This document shows, one piece after another, positions 22,995-45,200 of a stretch of 64,000 nt of DNA (within the stretch, counting starts at the first letter, position 1; every line of letters begins with the position of its first letter). Source of the stretch: Paludibaculum fermentans (lineage in GTDB: Bacteria; Acidobacteriota; Terriglobia; Bryobacterales; Bryobacteraceae). The DNA lies in contig NZ_CP063849.1 of NCBI RefSeq assembly GCF_015277775.1, positions 6,587,501-6,651,500 of the forward strand, read 5' to 3'. Below the pieces are notes generated by a model. The model saw only the letters and a program-made list of their open reading frames with translations. It made no database searches and was not told where the DNA came from. The position numbers were made by a program, and so were the translations under genes.

Positions 22995-23039
22995 GGTCGG
23001 GCCGCCCGGATATGAACCCGGGACCTCTTGCACCCCAAG
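22995..23039 (-). other. 3' fragment / pseudo-copy of tRNA-Pro (candidate attachment site)
   Basis: This stretch matches 41 of 45 bases of the tRNA-Pro(GGG) gene at 45124-45168, in the same orientation. It covers the anticodon loop (TTGGGGT), the 3' side of the anticodon stem, the variable loop, the T arm, the 3' acceptor strand and the first CC-equivalent bases. Twenty-one consecutive bases at one end and twelve at the other are identical. The T stem has one compensated pair and one G-G mismatch. The 5' acceptor strand is missing and the 5' anticodon stem does not pair, so it cannot be a working tRNA. A GCGC...GCGC resembling a D stem follows, so a whole decayed tRNA is the alternative. Confidence 0.75.
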
Positions 23040-23083
23040 ATGCCCGCGCAACCCGGCGCCCCTCTCCACACTAAGGACGAAGC

Positions 23084-24460
23084 TCAAGTACTGGCCAGAT
23101 CCTCGATCGTCGCGCTTTCCTGTCCGGCGGTTTTGGGCCCAGCTTCAGTTCTTGACCCGGCCGCCAGCCCCAGCACCCATGCCGCCGCCATTGAGTTGGC
23201 TGGAACATACAGATTGAAATCGACGAGCGAATGCAGCCAGATCGCCGTCAGCGACCCGCAGCAAGCCATGGCCACATACCGCGCCGGCGAGTCCCCCGCC
23301 ATCCTCGCGTTGCGAACAGCGCTCCAACTCACGCAAAGCCCCGCGCCCACTACCAGCACAAACCCCAGGACGCCCAACTCCGCCAGCACCTGCAGATAGT
23401 CGTTGTGGGCGAAGTTCACAGTTTGCATCGGTGAACCTCGCTGGTATCGGACGAATGTCGGTTCATATGCGCCCAGCCCGCACCCCGCCACCCCATAGTC
23501 GGCCACCAACTGGCGTGTATCCTGCCAGATCCGCACCCGGTCGTCCTTCGAGAGATCCTCCCGCACCGCAATGCTCGCAAAGCGGCCAATCAACGCGTCC
23601 GTAGGCAGGAATACGGCACCAGCCATGACGGTTGCGGCCGCGGCTATGACCACCGCCCCCTTTAGGCGTCGGCCCTCCACCCGGGCCCATAGGATGAGCA
23701 GTCCGGTCGTCCCCAGCGCAGCCAGGGCAGACAGGAAACCCATGCGGGAAAGCGATAGCAGCGTTGCGCACAGAATTCCTGCCGCGAGCCCCAGCAGTAG
23801 ACACGCCGCCACTGTCGCTCCAACCGCAGGGCGCCGCTTCCGATGACCCTCAACTGGCCGGAGCCTCCACGCCGCCAGTGCGACTAGGAATGGGAGGCTC
23901 ATCGCCAACAAACCCGCGAAGTGATTCCGGTTCGCGTAGGTGCCCGTCACCACCTCGCCACCTTCAGTCATTCCGTACTGCACCAGCCCGAGCACGGCCT
24001 CCGCCAGAGCCATCAGCATCAGGGGCGCCGCCGCCCGCCAAATCCCGAGGTGCCGTTCGCGGACCACGGTTCTCACAACCAGCAGTGTGAGCACGCAGCC
24101 CAGCAATTGGAGCCACCTCTGCCAGGTGGCACTCACCTGATTCGAGAGGGGCGCCCAACTGGCCGCATCCGTCACCGGTGCCAGCGCCTGCAGCAGCTCA
24201 GCTCTCGCCGGAGATAGGTGGCTCATCAGCCCGAGAGGCAGCGGAACCATCTGCCCGGCGGCAATCAGCAACAACGCCACCGGCAGCACCACCGCCGGTG
24301 CTCGCCAGTTGTCCTCACGCGCCCGCCAGCCCACGCAGCAGGCCGCCAGTCCAATCAGGGCCAACGCGAGATTCGAATCCCTCGCCTCCACTCCGGCGAA
24401 ATTCAAGAGCATCCAGCCCAGCGCCGCACTGAGCAGCCCGATGGCCACCGCCTTTGTCAC
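23084..24460 (-). CDS. O-antigen ligase / Wzy-type polymerase family membrane protein (first copy)
   Basis: A 458-residue protein with about 11-12 hydrophobic segments. The Wzy_C hallmark region is TGTYANRNHFAGLLAMSLPF (about residue 185), followed by the large periplasmic loop. RIWQDTRQLVADYGVAGCG and FAHNDYLQVLAELGVLGF lie about 330-375. These are the residues found in O-antigen ligases and polysaccharide polymerases. The GTG start at 24460 overlaps the upstream stop as GTGA, with GGAG 7 nt upstream. It is translationally coupled to the TPR-like gene. It may polymerise or ligate the repeat unit of the exopolysaccharide made by this locus. Confidence 0.85.
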   Translation of the reverse strand: MTKAVAIGLLSAALGWMLLNFAGVEARDSNLALALIGLAACCVGWRAREDNWRAPAVVLPVALLLIAAGQMVPLPLGLMSHLSPARAELLQALAPVTDAASWAPLSNQVSATWQRWLQLLGCVLTLLVVRTVVRERHLGIWRAAAPLMLMALAEAVLGLVQYGMTEGGEVVTGTYANRNHFAGLLAMSLPFLVALAAWRLRPVEGHRKRRPAVGATVAACLLLGLAAGILCATLLSLSRMGFLSALAALGTTGLLILWARVEGRRLKGAVVIAAAATVMAGAVFLPTDALIGRFASIAVREDLSKDDRVRIWQDTRQLVADYGVAGCGLGAYEPTFVRYQRGSPMQTVNFAHNDYLQVLAELGVLGFVLVVGAGLCVSWSAVRNARMAGDSPARYVAMACCGSLTAIWLHSLVDFNLYVPANSMAAAWVLGLAAGSRTEAGPKTAGQESATIEDLAST

Positions 24461-25614
24461 CTGGGCTCCAGTCTGAGTGCCCGCACCCACGCCACGCCCC
24501 GAACACGGTTGTCGAGCTTTTCCGACGAGTGTCGGACCAGGCCCAGTTCCAACACGCGAGTGCCCATCGGTACATCCAGATCGTAGACCCAGCTCTCCCA
24601 CGCGTTGGTCCCACTCAACTGCCTGCTCTCAAATGAGAATCGTTGGGGCCTCTCCGGGTCCCTCACCCGCAGAAGCAGCCCTTCATTCGTTGAGAGGCCG
24701 TCGGACTTCACACGCGCCTTCATCCGCCATCGCCCCGCCCCCACCGGGATCGTCTGGGTCACGTGCTGGAACTCGACATTCTCCGCCCCCAGGAATTCGA
24801 CCTGTATCGTTCCTTCTTCCTCAAATCCAATCCGCACACCCGCACACACCCCCACGTGCCAGTCAAAGGGCCCCGGTAGGAAAGGCTGTAGGAACTTCGG
24901 ATTGAACACCAGGTTCCCTGGCTCTCTCCTTTCCGCCTGGTTCACTTGCCCATCCCAGATTCGGCGCGCCTCCTCGATGCGGCCCCACTTCACCAAAGCG
25001 CTGGTGTAGGTGCTCAGCGCCTCCCTCGTAATCAGTCCCCGTCCGGACAACCAGGCCCAGGCCGCGCCAGCCCCCGCTTCGTGATCATTGCCCGCCTCGT
25101 CGGCCAGCCAGGCGGCACCCGCCCCCGCATCCTCCGGAACACCGCTCCGCTTCAACTCTTCCAGGCTGGTCCCGGACTCGCGGTAGTAGCGAAAGACGAC
25201 CGCGTCATACTCCCGCGAGATCGCCAACAGTCTCGCCCCCGTCCGCAATACCCCGTCTTTACTCTCACGCCCCATCCAGTAATTCAGCGCCCTCGCCTGC
25301 ACCGGCCCTACCCACGGCCCCAACTGCTCGGCGCGGCGCACGCAGTATGCCCCGGATTCCATCTGGCCCTGCGCCGCCAAATGGAGCCCCCTGCTCATCC
25401 AGGCATAGGGTGATGCCGCGTCCAGTCGCAAAAGGTCTCGATCCATCCCTGGCCGGTTCTCCGCAGGCTCCGCGGCCCGCAGTATTTCCAGTTCGCATCC
25501 GCCCAGGCGGCAGGCCACCCAGGCCCGGCGCCACCCGGCCAGCTCATTCAGCCACAGACTTGCGCCACCGCCGGCCACCGCTGCCAACCCCAGCATCACC
25601 ATCAGAATTCGCAA
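24457..25614 (-). CDS. Membrane-anchored TPR-like protein of the polysaccharide locus
   Basis: A 385-residue protein with one N-terminal TM (ILMVMLGLAAVAGGGASLWL). Next come degenerate helical repeats (about residues 30-215) with TPR-like spacing: LLRLDAASPYAWMSRGLHLA, then AEQLGPWVGPVQARALNYW. The C-terminal part is a beta-sandwich resembling a carbohydrate-binding module (FNPKFLQPFLPGPFDWHV start, about 225-385). A TTG at 25614 is the best start because GGAGGAG lies 6 nt before it; an in-frame ATG is 12 bp further in. Such proteins commonly sit beside O-antigen ligase genes in exopolysaccharide loci and probably assist polymerisation or secretion. No exact family recognised. Confidence 0.65.
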   Translation of the reverse strand: MRILMVMLGLAAVAGGGASLWLNELAGWRRAWVACRLGGCELEILRAAEPAENRPGMDRDLLRLDAASPYAWMSRGLHLAAQGQMESGAYCVRRAEQLGPWVGPVQARALNYWMGRESKDGVLRTGARLLAISREYDAVVFRYYRESGTSLEELKRSGVPEDAGAGAAWLADEAGNDHEAGAGAAWAWLSGRGLITREALSTYTSALVKWGRIEEARRIWDGQVNQAERREPGNLVFNPKFLQPFLPGPFDWHVGVCAGVRIGFEEEGTIQVEFLGAENVEFQHVTQTIPVGAGRWRMKARVKSDGLSTNEGLLLRVRDPERPQRFSFESRQLSGTNAWESWVYDLDVPMGTRVLELGLVRHSSEKLDNRVRGVAWVRALRLEPR

Positions 25615-25629
25615 CTGGCTCTCCTCCAC

Positions 25630-25743: not shown

Positions 25744-26325
25744 TTAGTGCCAGGCGTCACGGTTGGGCGGTCTCGGCGGCTCCGGGTGCCGCGGCAGCTG
25801 CGGGTGCCCGTGATACCTGCTGACCGGATCCGGACAATTGGTCCACGTGCCACCCCACGGCGCCTCTCCATACATCCGCTCCACCAGCGCGGCGGACGAC
25901 GCCCCATTCTGGGATCCGAAGTAACCGGCGTCAACCACTGTCGAAACGGCGCCCTTCTCGTTCCTCGTCACACCCACCAGCGCCGGTGCCCGCTCCACTC
26001 CGTAGAGCCCGACCGAATCCGCGGCCTTCAGGCGGAACGACGCCTCCCCTTTCACCACCTTCAGGGAAACCCGGCCGGCCTTCTCCACCAGCTGGATCGT
26101 TGACTCCTTCGCTACCAGCACATTGCTCCCGTCCTTGAACGTCAGCAGGGCCGCCCCTTCCTGTGTCGCCAGGCTATCGCCTGGGAATACCGCCCAACCG
26201 CCTGCGCCGGAAACCGGAACCACCTTGCCCCGCAAGGTGAAGGCAATCCCGCTGTCCACCGTTGCCACTGGCTGTGACGCCATCAACGCGCCACCGAACG
26301 CAATCATGACTATCAGACTTCGCAT
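25744..26325 (-). CDS. Secreted FecR-like domain protein
   Basis: A 193-residue protein with a short signal peptide (MRSLIVMIAFGGALMAS). A FecR-type beta-rich domain follows: PGDSLATQEGAALLTFKDG, then VLVAKESTIQLVEKAG and VVKGEASFRL (about residues 45-100). The C-terminus is Pro/His-rich (HGHPQLPRHPEPPRPP) and looks disordered. FecR domains in polysaccharide loci are usually periplasmic and thought to bind or pattern other components; no sigma factor partner is present here, so a FecI-type signalling role is unlikely. GAGGAG lies 9 nt upstream of the ATG. It is followed by an intrinsic terminator. Confidence 0.7.
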   Translation of the reverse strand: MRSLIVMIAFGGALMASQPVATVDSGIAFTLRGKVVPVSGAGGWAVFPGDSLATQEGAALLTFKDGSNVLVAKESTIQLVEKAGRVSLKVVKGEASFRLKAADSVGLYGVERAPALVGVTRNEKGAVSTVVDAGYFGSQNGASSAALVERMYGEAPWGGTWTNCPDPVSRYHGHPQLPRHPEPPRPPNRDAWH

Positions 26326-26542: not shown

Positions 26543-28018
26543 TCACTTGCCGCCGGCAGCCGCGGCTGCAGCGCGTGCCGGCTCCGGCTTGATCTGCCCG
26601 GCAATCTCCACCAGGCTGCCGCCCATTGCCATTCGGGTATGCAGGATCGTCGCGAGCGGCACCAGGGCTCCGCCCGGCACGGACTCTTCCGTAAAGCGGT
26701 GCCGCAACTCCACCAGCCCGTTGCCCTCCAAGGGAACCTGCATCGTCCAGACGCCGGGACACGATCCAACGCCCCCGCATTCCGTAGGGCAGCGGGATTC
26801 CCACAGTCGCCCTCTTTGCTCCACTCTGACCTTGCAGAAGCCGAGTTCCCGGTACGCGGCCTCCAGTGCGACCAACCGCCCCGTCATGCCGCCGGCCGCG
26901 CTCATCGCTTCGTCCATCTGCTGTAGCGCCAGTTGGGTCTGCAAGGTCCTTCGAAACGCACCGTGGAACACCATCCGGCTCGCCATGCCGATCTCGACAT
27001 AACCCAGGCTCTGCACGCCAGCCCACGCGCCCACCCCAAAAATCACGAGCACCAGGCCGGAGGATGCACCCTGCCCTGCACCCAGCAGCAGCGACAGCAC
27101 GGCCACCACGCCGGAAACTCCATACAGCACCAGCACCGCTCGCCTCGGAGTCATGCCCATGTCCAGCAGCTTGTGATGGATGTGCCCGCGGTCCGCCCCG
27201 AACACCGGTTTGCTGCGCAGGAACCTCCGGATCACCGCCACTGCCGTATCCATCAAGGGCACCGCAAACGCCATCAGCGGCGCGGTCATACCCAGTAGAG
27301 TCGCTGACTTGTGGCTCCACAGAACCCCATAGCAGCCCAGCAGGAAGCCAATCGTATAACTCCCGCTGTCACCCAGGAAGATGGATGCTGGATTGAAGTT
27401 GTAGCGCAAGAAGCCCAACAGCGCCGCTGCTAGCGGGACCGTGGCCAGTACCAGGGGATAGTTCTCACCGATCAGCCCCGCCACCAGGACGGTCAGGGTG
27501 GCAAACAAGCCCACCCCCGTCGCCAGGCCATCCACGCCGTCTATCAAATTGAACGCGTTCGTGCACAAGAGCAGCCAGAACACCGTCACCGGCACGGCTA
27601 CCCAGGAAGCCAGTGGGTGGCCCCCGACGCTGCCGACGCACACTCCGCAGAGAACGGCCGTCACGGCGGCCAGGCACTGTACGCCGAACTTGGTCCAGGG
27701 CCGCAGTGTTTTCAAATCGTCCAGCAGGCCAACCAGGAAGACCATCCCGACGGCTGGAGCCAGCCGCCACACCAACCCCAGGTCTCCGGCGACAATCCGG
27801 CCACCCTGCGTGCCCATCGCCAGCAGCACCCCGTACGCCATCGTGCACGAAACCGCAATCGCAATCCCGCCCACCCGCGGAATCGCCCCCGCATGCGTCT
27901 TCCGGACACCATCCGCCGCGTCGGTCATGCCCCATCGCCGGAACAGGTTCCGCACTAATGGAGTCGCCACCATCACTGTCGCAAAAGCTACCACCGCTAA
28001 TAAGATGATCGAATACAT
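26543..28018 (-). CDS. WecA/TagO-type undecaprenyl-phosphate glycosyl-1-phosphate transferase with C-terminal extension
   Basis: A 491-residue PNPT-family enzyme predicted to transfer a GlcNAc-1-phosphate-type sugar to undecaprenyl phosphate, starting the lipid-linked repeat unit. The family motifs are all present: KTHAGAIPRVGG (about 41), GLLDDLKTLRP (about 98), NAFNLIDGVDGLA (about 155), FLGDSGS (about 213) and GADRGHIHHKLLDMG (about 275). The membrane core ends near residue 340. Residues about 345-491 are a soluble extension with a CPTECGGVGSC cluster, absent from typical WecA (about 350-370 aa). The start ATG has GAGG 6 nt upstream, within a tandem duplication. It probably initiates the polysaccharide made by this locus. 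Confidence 0.9.
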   Translation of the reverse strand: MYSIILLAVVAFATVMVATPLVRNLFRRWGMTDAADGVRKTHAGAIPRVGGIAIAVSCTMAYGVLLAMGTQGGRIVAGDLGLVWRLAPAVGMVFLVGLLDDLKTLRPWTKFGVQCLAAVTAVLCGVCVGSVGGHPLASWVAVPVTVFWLLLCTNAFNLIDGVDGLATGVGLFATLTVLVAGLIGENYPLVLATVPLAAALLGFLRYNFNPASIFLGDSGSYTIGFLLGCYGVLWSHKSATLLGMTAPLMAFAVPLMDTAVAVIRRFLRSKPVFGADRGHIHHKLLDMGMTPRRAVLVLYGVSGVVAVLSLLLGAGQGASSGLVLVIFGVGAWAGVQSLGYVEIGMASRMVFHGAFRRTLQTQLALQQMDEAMSAAGGMTGRLVALEAAYRELGFCKVRVEQRGRLWESRCPTECGGVGSCPGVWTMQVPLEGNGLVELRHRFTEESVPGGALVPLATILHTRMAMGGSLVEIAGQIKPEPARAAAAAAGGK

Positions 28019-28019
28019 A

Positions 28020-28053
28020 ATTGCCTCAGGATCGTTATTGCCTCAGGATCGTT
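28020..28053. repeat. 17-bp perfect tandem duplication upstream of the wecA-like start
   Basis: ATTGCCTCAGGATCGTT is present twice back to back (28020-28036 and 28037-28053). On the coding strand each copy carries a GAGGCAAT segment; the proximal one serves as the ribosome site of the wecA-like gene. Confidence 0.9.
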
Positions 28054-28870
28054 CTCGATAGGAGACGCAAGACCCGAATCACGCTCAATAATCGCTATAG
28101 ATGAATTGACTGTTGGGGGTCACTCGTGCCGTGCTGGCGCATTGCCTGCAAACCGGCCAATATTAGTAACTCAACATGAATGGAACGGGCCTTTCGCTAC
28201 CGTGTTCGCCGGGCCGGCACGGCCAGGCGTGCCATTCTCCGCAGGTGCGACAGGACCCGGGAAAGGGGAGTTTCCTCATTCAGGCCGCGTTGACTACGTT
28301 CAACGGTCGGCGCCGCAAATCGCCACACCTCTCGCACGCCATAAGCGGAAACTGTCCAATCCGGTTCACTCTCACATCGTGCAACCACCCTCTGCCCTTC
28401 CTCTCACGCCCGGCGGGTACAGTAAGAGGATGAATCCACTCGTCAACGTGACAATGCGGATCCCGCTCGACAGAGTCTTCGGAGATCGAAGTTGCGCGCC
28501 ACGCAGCGCCAATTATTCTTAATCCATTTGAGTGAAGGTAAGGCCGGCTAGGAATACAGCACTCACTCGTACTATTGGCATTCCGATGTCATCGCTAACA
28601 ACCTGCCTGCCGCCACGCGGTACAAAGAAGGCTGAAAAGCACCCAGTGAAGATTCCGCTCGCCGCATGCCTCGAAGAGCCTTCAGGAAGCAGTATTGAGC
28701 TGACGATGCAGGGCAATCTCCCAAGCAAATAGGGGAGAACATCCGTACGTGCTAGTGCCTTCCGCTCCTCCCGGCAGCTTGTCTATCAAGCGATAAGGAA
28801 ATCATGAGGTAGACGGCTGGGTAGCGCTCAGTACCATGACCGCGTTAGCCCTCGCCGTCGCTATCAATCA
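28054..28870. other. Intergenic region of about 820 bp, no gene recognised
   Basis: It lies between the leftward wecA-like gene and the rightward beta-helix gene, so it should hold divergent promoters. Short frames up to 138 codons are open (28106-28522 plus) but have low-complexity, unfamiliar sequence and no good ribosome site. Base composition is lower in GC than in flanking chromosomal genes. No repeat, RNA or terminator stands out. Confidence 0.4.
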
Positions 28871-31492
28871 ATGATCTTAAGTAACAAGTCCAAGCCCGCC
28901 ACCGCAGTACCAGGGGGCCCTTCATTCCAGTCCATCTCAAGATGGATCTCCGGAGGTGCAATCCTTACCGCACGCATAGCCGCCCACCTTGCCGTACTTT
29001 CAGCGATCATCCTTCTTCGCGGTGCAGAGCCCTCATCAGGGCTTGTCATCAACGTGGATGGTGTCCAGCAGACACTGCAGAGCGCACTGCTGGCTTCTCG
29101 ATCCGCCGCTCCTGGCACACCTCGCACAATCGTCCTGCGTGGTGGGCGCTACTTGCTGTCAAGCCCGCTCATTCTCACGCCGCAAGACTCAAACCTCGCG
29201 ATCCAATCGGCGTCCGGAGAGCGTGCCGAACTCTGCGGCGGTCGACGAATCACCGGATGGCGTCAGGAAGGGAGCGGTCCGGTCTGGGTGGCAAGCCTGC
29301 CCGACTTGAACCACCAGCCCTGGAGGTTCCGTGTCCTCATCGTGGGTGGTCAGTTGTCAACTCGCGCCCGCCTGCCGGAGAGTGGATACTTCAAGGATCT
29401 TGGACCAGACTTCCAGGTCGGGAGTCGAATAGCGACAAGCGCCGAACTAACCACCTTGAACTACAGCGCTGCGGATCTTGGGCCATGGCTAAACCTGCAA
29501 AGCGCAGAAGTCCGCGTCTATCGCGTCTGGGATGAGTCCTTGTCCAAAGTGGCGTGGCTCAATGATGTCAATCATACAATCGGCCTCTCCACGCCGCTCC
29601 GCTTCCCACCAGGCGCTTACGGCATACATAAGTATGAAGTCCTGAATGTCAGGGAAGGCCTGCGCGCTCCCGGCCAATGGTTCCTTAACTATGCAACGAA
29701 CGAGGTTTTTTACTGGCCTAGGTCAGGCGAAGACATGACAACTACTGAGGTCTGGGCGCCAGTCACGGAAGTGCTCCTGCGTATTGAGGGAACGAATGTG
29801 CCGGTGAAGAACATCACGCTAAGCAATCTCGATTTCTCAATTACCGATGCACCTCCCAGGTCCAGTGGCTTCTCAGGGGCTGGTTATGATGGCGCTGTAA
29901 GCATGTCGGACGTGGATACAATCACCCTCTCTGGCGTTAGGATAAGACGAGTAGGCGCCAGCGGTATACAAGCAAGCAACACACAGAATATGCGTGTCCT
30001 TGCCTCGGAGTTCACTGAGACTGGGGCTTGCGCCATCTCCACGTATAACAGCAATGATCTCGAGATCGCCGACTCACGCGTTCAACTCGCCGGGCACTCG
30101 ACACCTGCCGCGGCCGGTATGGTCCTGCTGGGAGACAGGATGCATGTCCACCACAATGAGATCCGCGGGGTCCCCTATTCTGGCATCTCCGTCGGAGGGC
30201 AATCTCCACTAGTCGAATACAATCATGTCTTTAACGTAATGCAGTTGATGTCCGACGGAGCGGCCTATTATGTGGACGGAGGCCGTGCCGGTACCATCCG
30301 CAACAACTGGGCAAATGATGTTGGCGTAGGCATCGCCAGCCAGGCGCCAGCCTACTATCTGGACGAAGAGACCAGCGGCTTCTTGATTGAGCACAATGTT
30401 GCCATGGTGACGAACTGGATGCTGCACGTGCATATGGCCATCTCGAACACCGTGCACGACAACAGCTTCATCAGCTCCGGAGATGCCCGCCTGACCTTCC
30501 AGGGATCCAAGGCAACTCTCCTTACTCGGAACGTAGTCTATGCGGCTGGACAGCTGAGCTATGAGGCCGCTCCGGATGCCATTTCGTCACAGTCGGGCAG
30601 CATCCTGTTTAGTGGTACTCACAAAATGGAACTGGTTCGAGTGGATGCTAATTTCCAGAGAACTCCCCTTGACTCCACTGGAAATCTGATTGCGGATCCA
30701 GTTTTTCGAGATATGCCGCGCAATGATCTATATCTGATGCCGGCATCACCCGCCTTGGCCATTGGTGTGTCGCAACCCCTCACGCTTTCGGATGTCGGGC
30801 CGCGGACGTTGCCCACCATCGATGCACCCGCCACGCCGCCGGTGTTGTCGTATACCTTGACTCCTCAATCACTGAGCTTCGGCAATCAGCTCGTCGCGAC
30901 AACAAGCACGCCTCAGATCGCAAGACTCTCCAATACCGGCACATTGCCGATAACGATAGGGAAAGTCCAGCTGGCAGGCACAGCGCCAGGTAACTTCAAT
31001 CTGTCAACGAGTTGCCCAACCATCGTGCCAGCACGTTCTAGCTGCGATATCGCAATCACTTTCAAGCCGACGAACGCCAACCCGAGCCTGAAAAATGCAG
31101 CGCTGGACGTATACTTGACGACCCCTGCCGTGAAACTGTCGGTAGCGCTCAGCGGGGCAGGAATCGTCCCCACTTTCTCACTCTCTCCTGCGTCCTTGGT
31201 CTTTCCCTTGCAGAAGGTAGGGACAGCCAGCGCGGCTCAGGCTGTGACCATGCGTAACACGGGTAGTCTGCCAGTGACGATGACAAGTATATCCCTCACT
31301 GGCGTGGCGCCCGGCAACTTTGCCCAGTCGAATAACTGCGGTACAACACTGAAGGTTGCCTCGACTTGCACCATTAACGTCACGTTCAAGCCAACCAATG
31401 CGGCGCCAAGCGTCAAGACCGCATCCTTGACAATTAGTGCTCCAGCGCCGGCAGCTTCGCAATCTATCACTTTAAGCGGAGCCGGGAAGTAG
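28871..31492 (+). CDS. Secreted right-handed beta-helix protein with two choice-of-anchor D (Hydin-like) domains
   Basis: An 873-residue exported protein with an N-terminal hydrophobic signal (about residues 30-50, IAAHLAVLSAIILLRGA). Residues about 55-640 form a parallel beta-helix of the pectate-lyase/GH-type fold. It opens with VDGVQQTLQSALLASR and continues with coils such as ITLSNLDFSI, ITLSGVRIRRVGASGIQ and MHVHHNEIRGVPYSGISVGG. The start resembles family GH141/GH120-like helices, but I cannot place catalytic residues. Two tandem Ig-like repeats follow (about 655-765 and 765-873), each with the SFGNQLV/FPLQKVG opening and ITFKPTNA/VTFKPTNA ending. It is the only plus-strand gene in the polysaccharide locus and may act on, or be displayed with, the polymer. 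Confidence 0.75.
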   Translation: MILSNKSKPATAVPGGPSFQSISRWISGGAILTARIAAHLAVLSAIILLRGAEPSSGLVINVDGVQQTLQSALLASRSAAPGTPRTIVLRGGRYLLSSPLILTPQDSNLAIQSASGERAELCGGRRITGWRQEGSGPVWVASLPDLNHQPWRFRVLIVGGQLSTRARLPESGYFKDLGPDFQVGSRIATSAELTTLNYSAADLGPWLNLQSAEVRVYRVWDESLSKVAWLNDVNHTIGLSTPLRFPPGAYGIHKYEVLNVREGLRAPGQWFLNYATNEVFYWPRSGEDMTTTEVWAPVTEVLLRIEGTNVPVKNITLSNLDFSITDAPPRSSGFSGAGYDGAVSMSDVDTITLSGVRIRRVGASGIQASNTQNMRVLASEFTETGACAISTYNSNDLEIADSRVQLAGHSTPAAAGMVLLGDRMHVHHNEIRGVPYSGISVGGQSPLVEYNHVFNVMQLMSDGAAYYVDGGRAGTIRNNWANDVGVGIASQAPAYYLDEETSGFLIEHNVAMVTNWMLHVHMAISNTVHDNSFISSGDARLTFQGSKATLLTRNVVYAAGQLSYEAAPDAISSQSGSILFSGTHKMELVRVDANFQRTPLDSTGNLIADPVFRDMPRNDLYLMPASPALAIGVSQPLTLSDVGPRTLPTIDAPATPPVLSYTLTPQSLSFGNQLVATTSTPQIARLSNTGTLPITIGKVQLAGTAPGNFNLSTSCPTIVPARSSCDIAITFKPTNANPSLKNAALDVYLTTPAVKLSVALSGAGIVPTFSLSPASLVFPLQKVGTASAAQAVTMRNTGSLPVTMTSISLTGVAPGNFAQSNNCGTTLKVASTCTINVTFKPTNAAPSVKTASLTISAPAPAASQSITLSGAGK

Positions 31493-31624
31493 CTCTGCCG
31501 CGCATCGGCGCCAGTCGCGTCGCGCAACATTTAGGGATTTGCATATGATTGCTCCTGACGTGGCGGAATATCCATCGTGATCATGTGAGCTAGCTATATG
31601 CTCTCCTGTCATCGGGTTGCGGAG

Positions 31625-32389: not shown

Positions 32390-32575
32390 CTAGGTTGCTC
32401 ATTTCATTCCACTTGCCTGATCGGAGTGCGCTCCTGCTTCTCAGTTGGCAATTCAAGATGTCCGCATCCTCGGTGGCTAGCCCATGCGCCACCCGGCCAG
32501 GAGTTGATCGATTGGCCTGAGGCTCCTCCGGCACATGCCGGCGACTCGCGCTGCTGGATCCCAATCGAGTTCTGC

Positions 32576-33829: not shown

Positions 33830-33837
33830 ATGCCTAA

Positions 33838-35007: not shown

Positions 35008-35398
35008 ACTCAGTAGTCCTATGGGTGTACCCTTGGTCGCTGGGTCGCACTTGCCCTCCAGTTGCGCGCGGTGCGCCGTACTTGCCAAAGACCGCGTCAA
35101 CGCCGCCAGAAAAAGACCACGGGGGGAGTGCCCTCCTGCCCGGCAGTTCCCTCATCCCCAATGCCGGCGGTGGCTCCGTCGGGCTGTCTAGGGCCGAGGA
35201 GCCCCGGGTCAGGGTGGATCCTGCCTTCGGGGCGGCTTGTCCGCAATGCTCACCGCCGCAATTGCTGCTACCAGGAGCAAGACGCCGGCACGCTGTTCGC
35301 ACGCTCGCGCCACAGTGCTAAGCAGGAATGAGATCACCTATCGTGTGAGCTGCCAGCCATGATTTGCGGCTGTAGAGTTGGTGCCTGCGGGAATAGTT
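35008..35398. other. Gap of 391 bp within the glycosyl gene run, no gene supported
   Basis: On the minus strand a 35-codon frame starting at a GTG near 35307 encodes a short hydrophobic peptide (AGVLLLVAAIAAVSIAD) with no clear ribosome site. Otherwise the stretch is GC-rich with no recognisable protein. It may be the remains of a deleted gene or hold a promoter for the two GT4 genes. Confidence 0.3.
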
Positions 35399-36148: not shown

Positions 36149-36164
36149 GGGAGTGTTTGTGTAG

Positions 36165-37703: not shown

Positions 37704-39060
37704 GGCCAGCTTGCATCAATTGCAGTTCTCCGGATGAAGCCGGGTCTGGGGCGGCGGGTTTCGCAAAGCCGAGGAGATAGATCGTAGAGGCGAGGAAACT
37801 GGCCGCAACTGCAATTGCAAGGTGAGTGACGCTAAATGCTGAAGCAAGGAGCACCATAACCACAACACACATCACATTGATGCTCGCTGCAATAACATTG
37901 GCAATGAAGACTCTTGAGACGCGGCCCTTTGCCAGCAGAAGATAGTATGTGGGAATAGAAGCAACTTCGATTAGCACTCCCGCCAGGATAATGCGTAATG
38001 TGTTGGGTAGCAGCATGTGAAAGCGTGAGCCCAGCCAGATTCGTAGAAGGGGGCCGCAGCAAACGCTGGCTGAGCCGTAGATAACCAGGCCAAGAAGAAT
38101 CGCTGAGCGCGTTGCCCGCCTGCTAAGTGACTGAATCCGCTTCAGCGAGATACTTGTGCCACTGGCCTGCAGACGGCAGATCTCAGGCATAATGGCACTC
38201 ACTCCCGTGTCCACTATCGACCTGAGCTGCATCGAGAGACTCCAGGAGAGATCGAATACTGGCACCAGGGCCACCCCGCCATATCGCGCCAGCATCACTT
38301 TGTTGAAGGGAGCGATGAGGATGTTCACCAATGATGCGGCGAAAACTCCTGATCCGAAATCAAGCAACGTGCGGAGGCGCCGGATGTTGAATGCCGGTAA
38401 GCTGAGGCACCCGCAACCAGTGATACGACGAACCGCGACCAATGTTGACACATGTACGAATAGGTACGCGATAGCATTCGACCATAGGAGACTAGTGATG
38501 CCAATCCCATTTGCGAGCAGCACGACTGCAATGGAAAGGCTGATGATCCTGGCAATAACTTGCAGCAGGCTGGCCACGTCCATGCGGCCCAGTCCCGCCA
38601 GAACGCCGTTTAGTGCTTCCACTTGGAGCACGTAGATGGAGAGCCCTGCGATCCAAGGCATCAACCGGAGAGCTTGCGCCGCATTCTCGGGGCTGAGATG
38701 CATTGTCGAGACAAAGAGGCCGCGTAGCGCCATCACCAGGCCGAACATTGCGGTTCCAGTAATGGCAAGTGCCAGGAGGCCAGTGGTTGCATAGGAACGG
38801 ATCGCCAGGATGTCGCGGCGACTGTATTCTTCCGCCACATGTTTGGTCATGGCGGGAACCAAGCCAATCTTCCCGAACTGCGCAAATGCTAGAACGACTC
38901 CGAGCGTCAGCCACACTCCGTAGAGTTCATATCCCAGGTAGCCTAAGTACACCGGATACGATATACATGCAATCGCAGCCGTGACAATGACTTGGCTCGA
39001 ACCGGCGGCCGCGTTACGGTGAACTTGAGACGAACGTAAACGGCTTAGGACGGACGCCAT
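37681..39060 (-). CDS. Wzx-type polysaccharide flippase (MATE/MOP superfamily)
   Basis: A 459-residue integral membrane protein with about 12-14 TMs, from the ATG at 39060 (MASVLSRLRSSQVHRN). The frame is open to 39111 but the added 17 residues look non-coding. The N-terminal half has the polysaccharide-synthase pattern: YPVYLGYLGYELYGVWLTLG near TM1-2, then FGKIGLVPAMTKHVAEEYSR. TM pairs and loops such as FGSGVFAASLVNILIAPFNK and IMPEICRLQASG follow. It should flip the undecaprenyl-PP-linked repeat unit to the periplasm for Wzy. It is first in the leftward run of assembly genes after the repeat array. Confidence 0.87.
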   Translation of the reverse strand: MASVLSRLRSSQVHRNAAAGSSQVIVTAAIACISYPVYLGYLGYELYGVWLTLGVVLAFAQFGKIGLVPAMTKHVAEEYSRRDILAIRSYATTGLLALAITGTAMFGLVMALRGLFVSTMHLSPENAAQALRLMPWIAGLSIYVLQVEALNGVLAGLGRMDVASLLQVIARIISLSIAVVLLANGIGITSLLWSNAIAYLFVHVSTLVAVRRITGCGCLSLPAFNIRRLRTLLDFGSGVFAASLVNILIAPFNKVMLARYGGVALVPVFDLSWSLSMQLRSIVDTGVSAIMPEICRLQASGTSISLKRIQSLSRRATRSAILLGLVIYGSASVCCGPLLRIWLGSRFHMLLPNTLRIILAGVLIEVASIPTYYLLLAKGRVSRVFIANVIAASINVMCVVVMVLLASAFSVTHLAIAVAASFLASTIYLLGFAKPAAPDPASSGELQLMQAGRDLVREV

Positions 39061-39482
39061 GCCTGCTGGCGGCTTGAGCTGGCGGACGTGAAATGCGAAT
39101 GATCCTGGCATCTTTCACCGATAGAGGAGTCTGAGCGGCCGGCGGCATCGCGCTGGTCGGTCAATGGGGGATGTCATCACAGAACCGGCGAGATTATTTC
39201 CTATGTCGCTACAACAACATCCGAAACATGCCCGCCACTACGGCAAAACTCTCGTGGTACAACTTTGGCGCGACAGGTGTAGATCCCGTTCGCGCGGATC
39301 CGGACTCTTCCTAGGAGCCGGTCCACAGGTTCTTTGAAATCCGCACCGCCGCCCTACCACCACTCGCGCTCCAGTTCTCTGGGTCACTGAGCCTGGAGCG
39401 CCGGCCCGAGGGTCCGCAGTCTCGTCAATCTCGGTGCATGGAGGCTAGCTTTGAACTGGCACGGCCATCCAAATTCTCCCGG
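39061..39482. other. Non-coding stretch upstream of the flippase gene
   Basis: About 420 bp between the flippase start and the tandem repeat array. No gene, RNA or terminator is recognisable. It probably carries the leader or promoter of the flippase operon. Confidence 0.3.
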
Positions 39483-39915
39483 TTTGAGGGAACAAACCCA
39501 TCTTTGCGAGCCGGATCATCCGTAGGCCTGCCCCATCCACGAGACGGCCCAGGGCCTTACGGAATTCGCTGAAACAAACCCATCGATTGCCCCCGGGTCA
39601 CTCCAGGGCATGCACTCGCTCACCCTGGGTCTGGACCATGTTCTTACTTTTGAGGGAACAAACCCATCATTGCGAGCCGGATCATCCGTAGGCCTGCCCC
39701 ATCCACGAGACGGCCCAGGGCCTTACGGAATTCGCTGAAACAAACCCATCGATTGCCCCCGGGTCACTCCAGGGCACGCACTCACTCACCCTGGATTTGG
39801 AACATGTCCTTACTTTTGAGGGAACAAACCCATCCTGGGCCGATTGCCCCCGCGGCCTCAGTCGCTATCGCTCGGTTGGCCCCGAAACCACGGATTGTGA
39901 GGGATCAAACCCATT
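39483..39915. repeat. Tandem repeat array, 166-bp unit (about 83-bp sub-period), after the wzc-like gene
   Basis: A 166-bp unit is present twice almost perfectly (from 39485 and 39651). A third copy starting at 39817 is truncated and decays. Within each unit the motif AACAAACCCAT(C/T) occurs twice, so six copies start at 39491, 39573, 39657, 39739, 39823 and 39904, spaced 82, 84, 82, 84 and 81 bp. Read on the minus strand (the direction of transcription) each copy becomes (G)ATGGGTTTG. Spacers contain short inverted repeats such as CCAGGG...CCCTGG. The array lies 18 bp beyond the wzc-like stop codon. Confidence 0.9.
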
Positions 39916-39933
39916 CGGAGCTCAGATCGCGTG

Positions 39934-42336
39934 CTAGGAGGAATGATACTCGTACTTCTGACGGTATTTCGAGTACCCGTCATAGTAGCCCGATGCCCCG
40001 CCCCGGCCTCGCTTCGGATTCCAGTCGTTCATGATCGTCCCAAGAACCCTGATTCCGTCCTCTCTCAGCCTCGTTCGCGCCGAAATCGCCGAATCCCGCG
40101 TCGTCTTCCCAGCTCGTACTACGAGAATTACCCCGCTGGCCAGCCTTCCGATCACACGGGCATCCGGGATCTGGAGCATCGGCGGAGTGTCCACAAAAAC
40201 AACGTCATACTCCCGCGCAAAGCGTTCCATGGCATCCGCCAGCCACTGGGAGTACAGCAGGTTCGTCGCGCCCGCCACCGGCGGACCGCTCGTCATCAGG
40301 CTCAGCCCGGGTACTTGCGTCGCCTGGATCATAGCGAGGCCGCTCCAGTGTCCGCCGCGATTGTCGCCCCCCAGGGTCACCGGTTCCCCCAGCGCATCTC
40401 GCCCTTGCAGCACCGTCGTCAGCCCGGCTTCATTACTCTTTTCGAATATTTCGTGCAAACGTGGTTTCCGCGTATCCGCATCCACTAGCAGGACGCGTTG
40501 ACCGGTCTCCGCCATCGCGATCGCCAGATTGCTGGCCACCGTCGTCTTCCCCTCGCCAGGGCTTGGACTCGTCACCACCAGCACCTTTGGGCGCACCGCC
40601 CCACTCCGCGCAATCGCCCCCTGCCCGGTGAATAGGATGCTCGTCAGGGAGGACCGGAAGCTCTCAGCCAGAGCCGACGGCTTCTGGGCGAACGTCACCA
40701 GTTCCATCGGCTGGCGAGGTTCCGCCACCTTTCCCCTCGGCAGCAGTTTGCCTGCGCGGCCATTCAGCCGGCCGTAAATCCCACTGGACGAATCCTCACT
40801 GGGAATCATGCCTAGTTCCGGAACGTTCAGGTAGTAGCCGATGTCGGACGGATCGTGGAGCGTCCGGTCAGTTCGTTCTGTCATTACCACCAGGACAACC
40901 CCTGCGAAGAGCCCGCAGATCAGGCCGAGCGCCGCATTGATCGGCAGGTTGGGCTTATATGGCCTCTTCGGCGCCATCGCGGCGTCCACCACTCGCACAT
41001 TGCTCGCCCGCAGCGCGGAGGCCAGGCTCGCCTCCTTCAGTTTCTGCAGCATGCTGTCGTACAGCGCCCGGTTTGTATCCACCTCTCGCTTCAATATGTT
41101 GTACTGGATTGCCTTCTCACTCTGATCCGTCACCACGCCCGTCTGTTCCTTGAAAGACCCCAGCAACAGCTTCTCCCGGCGCGCAGCCTCTTCGTATTCG
41201 TTCTTGATCCTTGCCAGGATGTCGCCTCGCTGGCGAGCCAGGCTCTGCTCCACCGACGCGAGTTGGGCCTCCACCTTCTTCAGCTTCGGATGGCCCGCCT
41301 CGTAGGTCTCGTTTAGCTCCGCCTTCTGCCGCTGCAAATCGGAAACGCGCGTCTGAAACTCTTGCAGGATCTTGTCGTTCAGGATGTCCGGCAGGCTGCC
41401 GATGGCCGCACTGCTCGCCATTTCCCACCGGCTCTGCTTCTGAACGCGCTCGCTCTGCGCCCTCGTCAACTCGGTCTGCAGTTGGCTTAACTTCTCCTCG
41501 CTGACGTTCTTCTTCTCCTCGTCCCCTGTCAGCAGCAGACCGGTCCGCCGCGCATATGCCTGCAGCCCATCCTCGCTCTTCTCCAGGCGCCCACGCATGT
41601 CCGCAATCTGCTTGCCCAGAAACTGGCTCGTGCGCTCAGTCATCTGGAAACGGGCGTCCATGTTCATCGTGATGTACTGCTCCGTGAGCCGGTTGGCGAA
41701 CTCAGCCGCCACCTGCTTGTCTGTTGAATCCACCAGCACTTCGATGATCTTCGTTTGCCCGTTCGCCCTCGCCTTCAAGGTCTTCGCCGCCATCTTTACC
41801 GCCGCCGTCCGCGCGTCCACTTTGACAACGTCCGGCAGATTCAGCGCTCGCCGCCATGCTGAGATCCGCCCCGTCGCCGTCCCGGAATCCCTGTCTACAT
41901 CCTTCACCTGCATCTCTTCCAGCACGCGCCGCGTCAGGCTCTCACTTTGGAGAATCTGGATCTGCGTCTGAATGTCCGTCACCAGGCTCGAGTTCCCGCC
42001 CTCACTCAATGGCTGCACGCTGCCCATGTTCATGAAGTTCTGGTTCATTTCCAGAACTTCCAGCGTCGTCTTGGCCTGATACACAGGTGTCTGCGGCAAC
42101 GTAACCAGTACGGCCAGCAGGAAACCCGCGCCAGCCAGCAGGATGAGCGTCCCCATCCGCCGCCGTAGAATCTGCCAGTACTCCACCAACCCGCCACCTT
42201 CGTCGGGATCGTCCTGGAATTCCTGCGGATAGCCCCCCTGGACCGAATACGCCGGTGGTGCATATGCCTGCGCGTCGAAAGTGATGCCCTGCTTCCGGGC
42301 CGGCACCAAATCCCCTTGTTCGTCGTTCATTGTCAT
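39934..42336 (-). CDS. Polysaccharide co-polymerase / BY-kinase (Wzc-type tyrosine autokinase)
   Basis: An 800-residue fusion of a Wzz domain and a bacterial tyrosine kinase. The cytoplasmic N-terminus (about 1-55) is followed by TM1 (GTLILLAGAGFLLAVLVTL) and a periplasmic coiled-coil domain (about 85-455). TM2 (AALGLICGLFAGVVLVVM) follows. The kinase has Walker A SPSPGEGKTTVASN (about 595), A' LLVDADTRKPRLHEIF and Walker B VFVDTPPMLQIPDA. It ends in a Tyr cluster (YYDGYSKYRQKYEY), the autophosphorylation tail. It controls chain length and export through Wza. ATG follows directly on the wza-like stop, so the two are coupled. The repeat array follows the stop. Confidence 0.95.
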   Translation of the reverse strand: MTMNDEQGDLVPARKQGITFDAQAYAPPAYSVQGGYPQEFQDDPDEGGGLVEYWQILRRRMGTLILLAGAGFLLAVLVTLPQTPVYQAKTTLEVLEMNQNFMNMGSVQPLSEGGNSSLVTDIQTQIQILQSESLTRRVLEEMQVKDVDRDSGTATGRISAWRRALNLPDVVKVDARTAAVKMAAKTLKARANGQTKIIEVLVDSTDKQVAAEFANRLTEQYITMNMDARFQMTERTSQFLGKQIADMRGRLEKSEDGLQAYARRTGLLLTGDEEKKNVSEEKLSQLQTELTRAQSERVQKQSRWEMASSAAIGSLPDILNDKILQEFQTRVSDLQRQKAELNETYEAGHPKLKKVEAQLASVEQSLARQRGDILARIKNEYEEAARREKLLLGSFKEQTGVVTDQSEKAIQYNILKREVDTNRALYDSMLQKLKEASLASALRASNVRVVDAAMAPKRPYKPNLPINAALGLICGLFAGVVLVVMTERTDRTLHDPSDIGYYLNVPELGMIPSEDSSSGIYGRLNGRAGKLLPRGKVAEPRQPMELVTFAQKPSALAESFRSSLTSILFTGQGAIARSGAVRPKVLVVTSPSPGEGKTTVASNLAIAMAETGQRVLLVDADTRKPRLHEIFEKSNEAGLTTVLQGRDALGEPVTLGGDNRGGHWSGLAMIQATQVPGLSLMTSGPPVAGATNLLYSQWLADAMERFAREYDVVFVDTPPMLQIPDARVIGRLASGVILVVRAGKTTRDSAISARTRLREDGIRVLGTIMNDWNPKRGRGGASGYYDGYSKYRQKYEYHSS

Positions 42337-43272
42337 TTACCGCCGGCCGTAAATCACCACTCCGGTACCCATCGAAATCATGGCATCCAACGTCCGTGCC
42401 ATCGCTTTCTTCGACCCACTGACGGGAACGTATAGGATGTCGTCGCTCTGCATGGGTACATCTTTGTTGGTGCCTTTCAGGATCTCCGCGAGATTCACCG
42501 TGATCTCTGCCCGGATCTCGGGATTCGCTGTTCTGCGGAGGATCTTGGCCTCTCTGTTGTTTGCGTAGTTATCCACGCCTTCCGCCATCGACAGCGCCTG
42601 CAGTACCGTTGTCTTCTCCCGTTCACCCAGCACAAAGCCCCCGCTCTTCTTCACTGCGCCCATCACATACACCACCTGCCCTTTGGGCACAGTGATCACA
42701 TCGTTCGGCTTCACTTGAATATTCTGCGCCGGAGACCGGGCCTCCATAATGTCCCTCACGCCCACTTCCGCCACATAGAACTGCCCACTCTCATCGAATC
42801 TTGCGCCCTCGACCGGAATCTCGCCCCATGCCTTCTGGCGCGCAATCCTGATGGCATAGCCCGCATCGGGGTTCAAACCGCCGGCCAGGCTCACCATCTC
42901 GAGCAGGGTCTTCTGTCCTTGCACCTGGAACACCCCAGGATTCTTCACACTCCCCAATACACTCACCGGCTGGCTTCGCATCTCCAGCACGCTCACCGTC
43001 ACCTCGGGCTTTTTCAGGTACGGCATCAATCGCTCGCCAATAGCCGCTTCAAACTCTTCCAGGGTTCGGCCCGACGCTCTCACGCGCCCAGCCATCGGCA
43101 GATTCACGTTTCCGCGTATGTCAATCTGGTATGGATCTTTTCCGATCTCCTCCAGGTCGAGCACCCGCACCACGATCTGATCACCCGGTCCTAAGACGTA
43201 GGTCGATCGTGCCCCTGACTCCTGCCCCGGCAGCGTCGCCGCCATCAGCACAAGCAGGAATGCCCTGGTCAT
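42337..43272 (-). CDS. Wza-type polysaccharide export protein (Poly_export + SLBB)
   Basis: A 311-residue outer-membrane export protein. A signal peptide (MTRAFLLVLMAATLPGQ) without a lipobox Cys is followed by the Poly_export domain (YVLGPGDQIVVRVLDLEEIG, about residues 25-110). Two SLBB domains follow: VSVLGSVKNPGVFQVQG (about 120) and VVYVMGAVKKSGGFVLG (about 213). The C-terminus (TLDAMISMGTGVVIYGRR) resembles the amphipathic helix that lines the export pore. It pairs with the Wzc-type kinase encoded next. Its ATG overlaps the RHH gene's stop (ATGA), so it is translationally coupled. Confidence 0.92.
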   Translation of the reverse strand: MTRAFLLVLMAATLPGQESGARSTYVLGPGDQIVVRVLDLEEIGKDPYQIDIRGNVNLPMAGRVRASGRTLEEFEAAIGERLMPYLKKPEVTVSVLEMRSQPVSVLGSVKNPGVFQVQGQKTLLEMVSLAGGLNPDAGYAIRIARQKAWGEIPVEGARFDESGQFYVAEVGVRDIMEARSPAQNIQVKPNDVITVPKGQVVYVMGAVKKSGGFVLGEREKTTVLQALSMAEGVDNYANNREAKILRRTANPEIRAEITVNLAEILKGTNKDVPMQSDDILYVPVSGSKKAMARTLDAMISMGTGVVIYGRR

Positions 43273-43541: not shown

Positions 43542-44024
43542 TTAGGTCAAGGCCTCGACTGATTCCGCATCTACCTCCACTTGTACACTTCGCTGCAGCA
43601 GATGCACCGAAAGCACAAGCACATACCGGTTCTTCACTTTATCCAGGACGCCGCTCACGCCTTTCAGCGGCCCACTCCTCACCCGCACAGTCATTCCTTC
43701 CCTCAAATAAGGGCATGGCGACGCCGTTAGATTGCCCGCGGCCAGCCGCCTGACTCCCTCAATCTCTGCCTCCGAAATATGCCCCCAGACAATCTGCAGC
43801 ACGCCAGGTGTACTTTTGATCGGCACCCATTTGAGCGGATCAAATCTTACAAACACGTATCCGTCAAATAGCGGCAAGTCCACAAACTTAATCCGGTCGG
43901 TCCACTTCCTTCGCGAACGGTAAGATGGAAAGAAGTCTTCATACCCCTTGGCTCTTAGTCCTTCTGCGACTATCTGCTCTTGGTGTGGTTTGGTACGGAT
44001 GGCGTGCCACGGATACTGCTGCAT
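43542..44024 (-). CDS. UpxY/RfaH-like NusG-family transcription antiterminator
   Basis: A 160-residue NusG paralog. The N-terminal NGN domain starts WHAIRTKPHQEQIVAEGLRAKG and includes FFPSYRSRRKWTDRI and LPLFDGYVFVRFD (about residues 20-80). The C-terminal KOW domain has LREGMTVRVRSGPLKGVSGVL and KNRYVLVLSVHLL. Such proteins (UpxY, RfaH, LoaP) ride RNA polymerase and suppress termination in long polysaccharide operons. An ATG at 44024 matches the usual family start; the frame also opens at an ATG at 44096, which the predicted promoter would also include. It is the first gene of the export operon. Confidence 0.92.
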   Translation of the reverse strand: MQQYPWHAIRTKPHQEQIVAEGLRAKGYEDFFPSYRSRRKWTDRIKFVDLPLFDGYVFVRFDPLKWVPIKSTPGVLQIVWGHISEAEIEGVRRLAAGNLTASPCPYLREGMTVRVRSGPLKGVSGVLDKVKNRYVLVLSVHLLQRSVQVEVDAESVEALT

Positions 44025-44156
44025 AAGAAATGGCTTACGTTTGGGCAGACTTCGTCCCCATCGGTCCCATCCGGGACTCAGGGCGAGAATGCACACATTG
44101 GGATAGTGATCGATTTCAGACCATGTAACCGAGGTGTCTGATATTGACCGAGTTCA

Positions 44157-44185
44157 ATTGTGGGAGTATGTATCACGTCTGTCAA
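44157..44185 (-). promoter_or_regulatory. Predicted sigma70 promoter of the polysaccharide export operon
   Basis: On the minus strand TTGACA (44185-44180), a 17-nt spacer and CACAAT (44162-44157) predict a start near 44150, upstream of the antiterminator gene. An inverted repeat TAGTA-AA-TACTA lies at 44231-44242, about 46 bp upstream of the -35 box, a possible operator. Confidence 0.6.
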
Positions 44186-45122
44186 TCATTAGTTTTCCAG
44201 CCGGGCATTAAAGTTGTTCTCTGGTACTCGTAGTAAATACTATGATGGCTAATTCAAATTAGTGGCTTCTGATCGCCTTCCCCTTATCTGTCCTTTGGTG
44301 CCCTGGATGATTTGATACAGGATACTGGTGCACCTCGAGGGTGTTCACAGCAAAGCCGGAATGCCATGTTGGGATTGAACCTGGCGAATAACTCGAAGGC
44401 TGGCAAGGGTTTGGCGGCGTCAGAGCCGCGCCTGGCCTTCCACTCAGATGCTTGCTCCCTCGCCGCATCGCACTCGTGCCACGCCTCCAGGGCAATGTCC
44501 AGATGGACTTTCCGGCGGACGATAGATTACTGACATGTCCGCATGTTTAAAAGACGAAATGCCAGTGACTAGTACAATCTCGCATTTTCAGATTTGTGAG
44601 ACAGAATACTGCGGCAGAAATCAAGATAGAGAGGCGAGCCCCATGTTGATCTGCAGGCCTAGTGTGTGGTGGAGCAGTCGGATGAAACGTACACCGAAAT
44701 AGGGGGTGCCAGCTAATGCCAGAATCGTGCCGCCCAGGTCGAAATCCTATGCCTCGCAGCAGGCAGCAGGGTCGCCAAGTTGATGGTGTGAGTCCCGCGA
44801 TCAGCATGCCGGCGGGACGCCTGCAAGCAAACAAAAATGTATGACGGGAGACACTACAAACGGAGCCTGCACCACGGTCATCACCTGGCCGGGTATCTTC
44901 CAGTGGCCGGGGTTTGGCAGGTTCGAGCTCTAGGCGTCCATGGCCGGTCTCGAGTCAATTCCGGCCCATCCGACCTTCTGCCTGGACATTGACCAGGGCA
45001 GCGTGAGTTTGCATCAGCCGAGGAAAGCGCTGGTGGGGCCCAGTGAGCAAACTCCACGCAATCTGGGCAAACGCCAGTGCACACTCTGGACCGCGAGGGG
45101 AATGGATACTGAGGAGGTTAGT
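44186..45122. other. About 940 bp without an intact gene, between the operon promoter and tRNA-Pro
   Basis: One minus-strand stretch (about 44520-44275) reads as a plausible coding fragment (ALEAWHECDAAREQASEW, then AFELFARFNPNMAFRLCCEH), with an in-frame stop just upstream and no start codon until mid-way. This could be a decayed gene. I do not recognise the protein. No other features are seen, and no integrase. Confidence 0.35.
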
Positions 45123-45200
45123 TGGTCGGGCCGCCGAGATTTGAACTCGGGACCTCTTGCACCCCAAGCAAGCGCGCTAGCCAGGCTGCGCCACGGCCCG
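45123..45200 (-). tRNA. tRNA-Pro (anticodon GGG), CCA encoded
   Basis: The cloverleaf folds by eye. The acceptor CGGGCCG pairs with CGGCCCG. The D stem is GCGC/GCGC with a 10-nt loop. The anticodon stem CTTGC/GCAAG encloses TTGGGGT, so the anticodon is GGG and it reads CCC and CCU codons. The T arm is CCGAG-TTCAAAT-CTCGG, then discriminator A and CCA. Its 3' half is repeated imperfectly at 22995-23039. The gene marks the right boundary of the polysaccharide locus, which lies on its 3' side. Confidence 0.95.

Follow-up and report, generated by a model that had tools for sequence, protein, structure and literature searches.

Strand exchange by tyrosine integrases that target tRNA genes usually takes place at the anticodon loop. 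Capsule and O-antigen-type Wzx/Wzy loci, for their part, are exchangeable and have conserved assembly genes at their ends and a low-GC, specific middle. Both tRNA-bounded islands and surface-polysaccharide loci that vary from relative to relative are already well known. Here we describe a locus in Paludibaculum fermentans, a wetland acidobacterium of the order Bryobacterales, in which an intact tRNA-Pro(GGG) gene and a displaced copy of its 3' half bracket a predicted Wzx/Wzy-dependent polysaccharide locus. The stretch of DNA analyzed (the window) comprises 64,000 nucleotides, positions 6,587,501 to 6,651,500 of contig NZ_CP063849.1. We consider it highly probable that the interval between the tRNA and the copy represents a site for genomic islands at the tRNA-Pro(GGG) 3' end, old and now without an integrase, with the copy as a remnant of the far attachment site (attR). 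The P. fermentans locus is new, as is a family-wide attachment (att) sequence with its matching integrase family. A limited literature search, which covered full text only in part, turned up little in print on tRNA islands in the soil and wetland group that holds P. fermentans, and no paper on a tRNA-Pro site in this group; the Solibacter paper lists IslandPath islands (PMC3174227).

The Islander approach takes a regenerated tRNA and a displaced tRNA fragment as the marks of island endpoints (PMC4383910). Set beside that account, the window likewise has an intact tRNA and a same-orientation 3' fragment 22 kb apart. The fragment is in the same replicon, the interval lies within 2 to 200 kb, the contents are partly foreign-looking, and the fragment is not a full tRNA, none being called there by ARAGORN; it stands between the open reading frames (ORFs) 21796-22923 and 23084-24601, outside the coding domains found. 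We have counted the fragment as reaching the tRNA end, though it stops one base short. The locus departs from that account in its lack of an integrase, and Islander's integrase filter would reject it. Tycheposons, known from Prochlorococcus, and additive islands with repeated tRNA ends (PMC10872708) are alike in having a tRNA at one border and tRNA-end copies that mark the borders; the window differs in having no recombinase, other contents and another tRNA. Compared with exchangeable polysaccharide loci, the window is alike in its conserved ends, its low-GC middle and contents that differ among sister species, but differs in having a tRNA attachment site and in sharing its genome with a second such locus.

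The intact tRNA-Pro(GGG) (45123-45200, minus strand) is the sole tRNA called by ARAGORN in the window, with an Rfam tRNA score of 61.6 bits, and we take its 3' half as the presumed site of attachment, on the attL side. The displaced copy, the presumed attR remnant (22995-23039, minus strand), agrees with 45124-45168 in 41 of 45 bases and has the same orientation. From the anticodon loop, preceded by the final base of the 5' anticodon stem, it extends to the last base but one of the tRNA as called by ARAGORN, the final A of the encoded CCA being unmatched. A putative ORF of 123 amino acids (aa; 23028-23399) overlaps its edge. In the whole genome the fragment has one other match, the tRNA itself (E 5e-11; next best E 0.3), and when 45127-45171 was used as the query no further ungapped place in the window reached 27/45. 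By simple arithmetic, one random fragment in 9.48 Mb would fall within 22 kb of the tRNA, on its 3' side and in the same orientation, with a chance of about 1/850. The bracketing of the Wzx/Wzy locus by the tRNA and its 41/45 copy, which was the starting point of a preliminary description of this DNA made from the sequence alone, is thus confirmed by ARAGORN and the genome-wide match, and the concern that the fragment is a common, scattered tRNA pseudogene falls away, tRNA-Pro being its one match in the genome. We note that GC skew flips sharply at 23000, from about +0.05 to -0.19; because the genes to the right of 23.0 kb are mostly on the minus strand, we read this as strand bias of the locus.

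Fragment and tRNA differ at four positions. Two of these form a compensatory T-stem pair (which we take to be pair 52-62) that is A-U in the present tRNA and G-C in the fragment; of the other two, one breaks a stem pair and one alters a T-loop base, and both look like decay. We compared the tRNAs of the genus, with P. fermentans coded G000 and the eight further genomes of the genus, several of them incomplete, coded G001 to G008. Among the eight genus tRNAs that were read (G001 gave no match), the pair is G-C in five (G003, G004, G005, G007 and G008) and A-U in three, namely P. fermentans and its sister species G002 and G006; in the wider family it is A-U in 7 of 21 genomes and G-C in 14 of 21. 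Against the tRNA-Pro of G004 and other genus members of its form, the fragment matches at 43 of 45 positions. Because its G-C T stem agrees with five genus members and not with the present tRNA, the fragment looks like an earlier host half of the tRNA. A later change in the host tRNA itself is a possible alternative explanation of the mismatch, since both T-stem forms occur across the family.

Comparison with the sister species shows that the same slot is occupied by dissimilar inserts. The first conserved gene of the left flank, encoding a DACNV-domain protein (21796-22923, minus strand) and common to G002 and G006, has close orthologs only in these two among the eight other, partly incomplete, genus genomes, with 81 to 85% protein identity; the G004 copy is 50% identical and lies on a different contig. 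On the right, the flank common to both sisters contains ATP synthase alpha/beta-type subunit genes and a rubrerythrin-type gene. The flanking DNA is 84% (G002) and 79% (G006) identical on the left and 88% and 89% identical on the right (blastn). Between these flanks, the tRNA lies 22,084 bases from the left flank in P. fermentans; the distance is 24,969 bases in G006 and in G002 about 37,170, and no DNA similarity was found between the window insert and either sister's insert (blastn, E 0.01); the G002 and G006 inserts have 116 bases at 73% in common in the same search. At the protein level, the G002 insert shows only weak similarity to the island, in an export protein (28%) and in a region that aligns with two of the island's glycosyltransferases (29 to 31%). 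The matches from 16 ORFs scanned in the G002 insert include a YhcG-type nuclease, glycosyltransferases, epimerases, a carbamoyltransferase, export and Wzz-type proteins, AlgX and glycosidases, and those from 13 ORFs scanned in the G006 insert include LodA, ferritin-like, radical SAM, FAD/halogenase-type, di-haem oxidoreductase and kinase-PD40 families. Polysaccharide genes are therefore present in two of the three inserts (P. fermentans and G002), and a single tRNA-bounded slot carries, in three related genomes, 22- to 37-kb inserts of very different content. The earlier proposal of integration at the tRNA 3' end is supported by these common flanks and dissimilar inserts. Vertical inheritance of one cluster at this place, which would have spoken against it, is not what is seen, G002 and G006 having other contents.

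G006 also has a displaced tRNA-Pro 3' half of its own, identical to the G006 tRNA at 44 of 45 positions and situated about 67 bases from the flank gene, compared with 71 bases in P. fermentans. The called start of a plasmid-type RepA ORF in G006 (L120 14439-15815) overlaps this displaced half, which suggests an integrated plasmid-like element. RepA was considered as a marker of a second class of elements and rejected; no homolog was present in the window or in the other loci tested, save for short tRNA-Pro matches.

The same tRNA half is used by integrase-bearing elements in related genera. A search of the wider family found a tRNA-Pro match in 139 of 150 genomes; partial copies were surveyed in 37 of the genomes (G000 to G036), and end patterns and integrases in all 150. 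Copies of the 3' half only, defined by a query start of 32 to 42 and an end of 85 to 90, with shorter partials and contig-edge matches left out, are present in 12 of the 37, and 13 fragments were read in 11 of these 12 (G005 left out). The sequence GTAAGTGATTGAT stands a few bases before the anticodon loop in 9 of the 13 fragments and, with two changes, in that of G035; the fragments without it are those of P. fermentans and G006 and one of the two in G009. An exact end pattern was found at 16 sites (L201 to L216) in 15 of the 150 genomes, and the reversed control gave none. The usual order at these sites is a CTAAGTCTTTTGTTTTCA-like sequence, about 13 bases, GTAAGTGATTGAT, 8 to 9 bases and the tRNA half, and many intact tRNAs are followed by a TCAAAGACTTACA-like sequence, close to the reverse complement of the motif at the GTAAGTGATTGAT end. 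The integrases beside the fragments of G008, G010, G018 and G019 are 64 to 94% identical in local alignments; those beside the fragments of G004, G009 and G035 are outside that group or too short to assign. Relatives of the G010 integrase (E 1e-40 or better) are encoded in 25 of the 150 genomes, and 7 of the 15 genomes with the end pattern have an integrase of this type, as against 2.5 expected (hypergeometric P 0.004). At 6 of the 16 sites a related integrase lies 1.4 to 9.1 kb away on the same contig and strand, and the genus member G008 has a fragment and integrase pair 9.7 kb apart. Sites L201 to L216 and tRNA loci L010 to L029 represent an integrative element of tRNA-Pro(GGG) that occurs family-wide and has conserved ends and a related integrase. 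The att sequence with its integrase family makes site-specific integration directly testable in these little-studied bacteria.

These elements (for example in G010, G019, G065, G087, G097 and G008) use the same tRNA half and the same copy start as the window island, but they carry GTAAGTGATTGAT/TCAAAGACTTACA arms and often a related integrase, and the window island has neither. Membership of the window island in the GTAAGTGATTGAT class was accordingly rejected, the conserved arm sequence not having been found at its fragment. Because P. fermentans, G002 and G006 have no exact match to the end pattern and no relative of the G010 integrase at E 1e-40, the window island stems from another wave in the use of the tRNA-Pro site, or from a much older one.

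Several further features of the family sites are of note. Near pattern sites are genes for a GajB-like helicase and a TGT/DpdA-like protein (G019), a PDC-M04A protein (G036) and an HTH_37 protein (G027). At three loci the tRNA-Pro and a fragment are 1.1, 2.5 and 5.6 kb apart (L132 5457-6549, L134 8162-10678 and L133 7357-12996, respectively), with the conserved end present and no PF00589 match in between; these are possible non-autonomous cassettes. In G013 (L208 near 990) the tRNA half that comes after the conserved end is limited to its first 19 bases, and in G128 (L202 near 292) the tRNA half has a different T stem. G004 contains two full tRNA-Pro(GGG) genes about 4.1 kb apart (L125 15318-19573), with a short integrase piece directly after the first and a gamma-glutamyltranspeptidase gene in between.

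The interval itself contains 15 selected ORFs of at least 100 aa, 13 of them on the minus strand, and family matches alone identify it as a candidate Wzx/Wzy-dependent polysaccharide locus with a predicted product and activity. Reading from the tRNA, and on the minus strand unless stated, a gap with no ORF of at least 100 aa except one overlapping the tRNA (44097-45122) is followed by genes for a NusG-like antiterminator of the RfaH/UpxY type (43542-44096; all matches below NCBIfam cut-offs), a Wza-like polysaccharide export protein (42337-43272), a Wzz/Wzc-like chain-length determinant fused to a BY-kinase type ATPase (39934-42336), a Wzx-like flippase (37681-39111), a Wzy_C protein that is the presumed polymerase (36165-37703), a YdjC-like deacetylase (35399-36148), two group 1 glycosyltransferases (33838-35100 and 32576-33829) and a WecG/TagA/CpsF glycosyltransferase (31625-32389). 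Beyond these are a plus-strand gene for a beta-helix protein with a choice-of-anchor D domain (28871-31492), a WecA-like initiating sugar-phosphate transferase (26543-28018), two ORFs without a Pfam or NCBIfam match (25744-26325 and 24457-25629) and, as the last gene before the fragment, an O-antigen-ligase-like Wzy_C protein (23084-24601) with a weak, below-cut-off match to exosortase-associated O-ligase. By family matches the component set of a Wzx/Wzy locus is complete (initiator, glycosyltransferases, Wzx, Wzy and Wzc/Wza export). The family names would predict an undecaprenol-linked glycan that is flipped by Wzx, polymerized by Wzy and exported by Wzc/Wza, with the RfaH-like antiterminator perhaps acting on the operon.

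The composition of the interval is uneven. Windows of tetranucleotide usage and GC mark 28001-40000 as the low-GC and most atypical stretch of the locus: its GC is 56.5%, the five 4-kb windows inside it range from 55.7 to 57.1%, and among 180 background windows 0 to 1.1% reach their tetranucleotide distances. The 42- to 46-kb window adjoining the tRNA is also unusual (2.2% of background). For the insert as a whole the distance is 0.189, larger than in every one of 20 background 20-kb segments (maximum 0.131), an excess that stems from 28 to 40 kb and the tRNA-side end. On composition, then, the specific middle is foreign, and perhaps the tRNA-side end too; the island edge at the fragment is not traced by it. 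The lower GC of the center reported in the preliminary description is therefore real, and the atypical k-mer composition sought inside the interval holds for 28 to 40 kb and 42 to 46 kb and fails at 22 to 28 kb. The low-GC center is more readily accounted for as the variable middle that polysaccharide loci usually have, since a second, vertically kept locus of the same genome has homologs of the genes at either end of the cluster.

This second polysaccharide locus (P. fermentans C1:5.06-5.09 Mb) is present in G002 and G006 too and has the same gene order as the island at both ends. Protein identities between the two loci are 53 to 59% for the antiterminator, 62 to 67% for the exporter, 57 to 58% for Wzc, 52 to 56% for the initiator and 43 to 45% for the ligase-like protein; the ORF at 24457-25629 has a homolog (29%) at the opposite end of the second locus, beside the antiterminator. 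No copy of the island initiator closer than the second locus was found in G002 or G006, and the same is true of Wzc among the candidates scored (6 of 44 first-look candidates in G002 and 6 of 41 in G006), the nearest copies there being 62% identical over part of the island Wzc, at a shared locus elsewhere. The middle of the second locus (C1:5.05-5.10 Mb, L217 to L219) aligns partly with that of G002 and hardly with that of G006.

The most likely course of events is that a mobile element recombined into the tRNA-Pro half, from the anticodon loop to the 3' end, in an ancestor, and that the element's own copy of the 3' half restored the tRNA. The original 3' half would have been pushed to the far end of the element, where it would survive as the 45-base fragment. 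A tyrosine recombinase would presumably have made the insertion and later been lost, or have acted in trans. The slot would since have been refilled or exchanged in a different way in each sister lineage, and in P. fermentans it now contains a second Wzx/Wzy-type polysaccharide locus and no integrase.

A number of observations weigh against an island at this site. First, no integrase accompanies it: of the seven PF00589 matches in the whole genome none is in the window, in agreement with the preliminary description, and none is present in the G002 or G006 insert. Seven integrases from near tRNA-Pro copies left no remnant better than E 0.1 in the window, so that the recombinase remnants that had been suggested for the gap beside the tRNA, or elsewhere, did not materialize; the arm sequence of the GTAAGTGATTGAT type is likewise missing from the island fragment. 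Second, the borders are imperfect. Similarity to the left flank of both sisters starts 34 bases past the fragment (the intervening stretch being 22961-22994, by blastn) and not at the fragment itself, so that the border is resolved to 34 bases and not to the base, and the 22 to 28 kb beside the fragment are host-like in composition. Third, comparison with relatives bore out only part of what had been expected of it: the slot is filled differently in both relatives that have both flanks, yet there is no empty site, all three genomes with both flanks being occupied. G002 has no fragment at 31/45 or better, and the G006 fragment has the new T-stem type, which requires an extra event. Fourth, the 5' side of the tRNA varies as well, with about 9.9 kb extra in P. 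fermentans, about 4 kb in G006 and none in G002, and the neighborhood therefore accepts insertions without the help of the tRNA. Lastly, the end genes of the island are 43 to 67% identical to those of the genome's own second polysaccharide locus.

The resemblance between the two loci raises the question of whether the polysaccharide genes came with the element. They may have arrived later, by homologous recombination between conserved flanks, with the fragment being the true attR of an earlier element; this keeps the same att reading with another cargo and amounts to a locus exchange as in capsule switching. The NusG-like, Wza, Wzc, WecA-like and ligase-like genes are collinear with the second locus at the identities given above, the second locus is vertically kept and has a variable middle too, the island has no integrase, and G002 has polysaccharide genes at the site yet no fragment, all of which fit later recombination. 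However, the fragments of P. fermentans and G006 are nearly equidistant from the flank gene, and integrase-bearing elements use the same tRNA half in related genera and in G008. We regard later arrival as a serious contender, if a little short of an even chance; whether the polysaccharide genes rode in on the element or replaced its contents by recombination we judge to be a roughly even choice.

The collinear, homologous ends would also fit a duplicate of the genome's own polysaccharide locus, placed here by transposition or rearrangement with no connection to the tRNA site. The proteins at the ends are only 43 to 67% identical, though, the middle is different and low in GC, and the borders coincide with the tRNA and the tRNA fragment, and we consider such a duplication quite improbable. 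Least credible is the alternative, raised in the preliminary description, of a duplicate tRNA-Pro that decayed into the fragment, in which case the locus would lie between the two genes by chance: a GCGC...GCGC stretch after the fragment, pointed out in that description, the tRNA-like G-C pair of the fragment and the two full tRNA-Pro genes 4 kb apart in G004 would favor it, but the 36 bases past the fragment align to the tRNA 5' half with a score of 2.5, which is matched or exceeded by 35% of 5,000 GC-matched and 23% of 5,000 unmatched 36-mers from the same genome, the similarity sets in at the anticodon loop, as it does in relatives' att sites, and the inserts differ between sister species.

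With the interval taken as a tRNA-Pro(GGG) island site, a broader and rather unlikely proposal is that the tRNA-Pro(GGG) 3' half serves as the family's general docking site for swapping large surface and metabolic gene sets, including polysaccharide loci. Elements would bring their own T arm, T-stem types would record the order of arrival, and integrase-less polysaccharide islands would be passengers of other elements' integrases.

The P. fermentans strain P105T has a chromosome of 9,476,802 bp and a plasmid of 55,292 bp (PMC8407742), and the assembly used here totals 9,532,094 bases in two contigs, the larger of 9,476,802. Three integrase genes on its chromosome have the same or nearly the same PF00589 score (C1:8862921, 8869533 and 8879616), as do three in G006 (C1:3673589, C3:1791569 and C3:2340081), and both triplets are probably recent copies. 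On the 5' side of the window tRNA, the stretch of about 9.9 kb that G002 lacks (45201-55100) encodes RCC1-repeat proteins of 2276 and 899 aa, the larger of which also has InlB-type and DUF11 domains.

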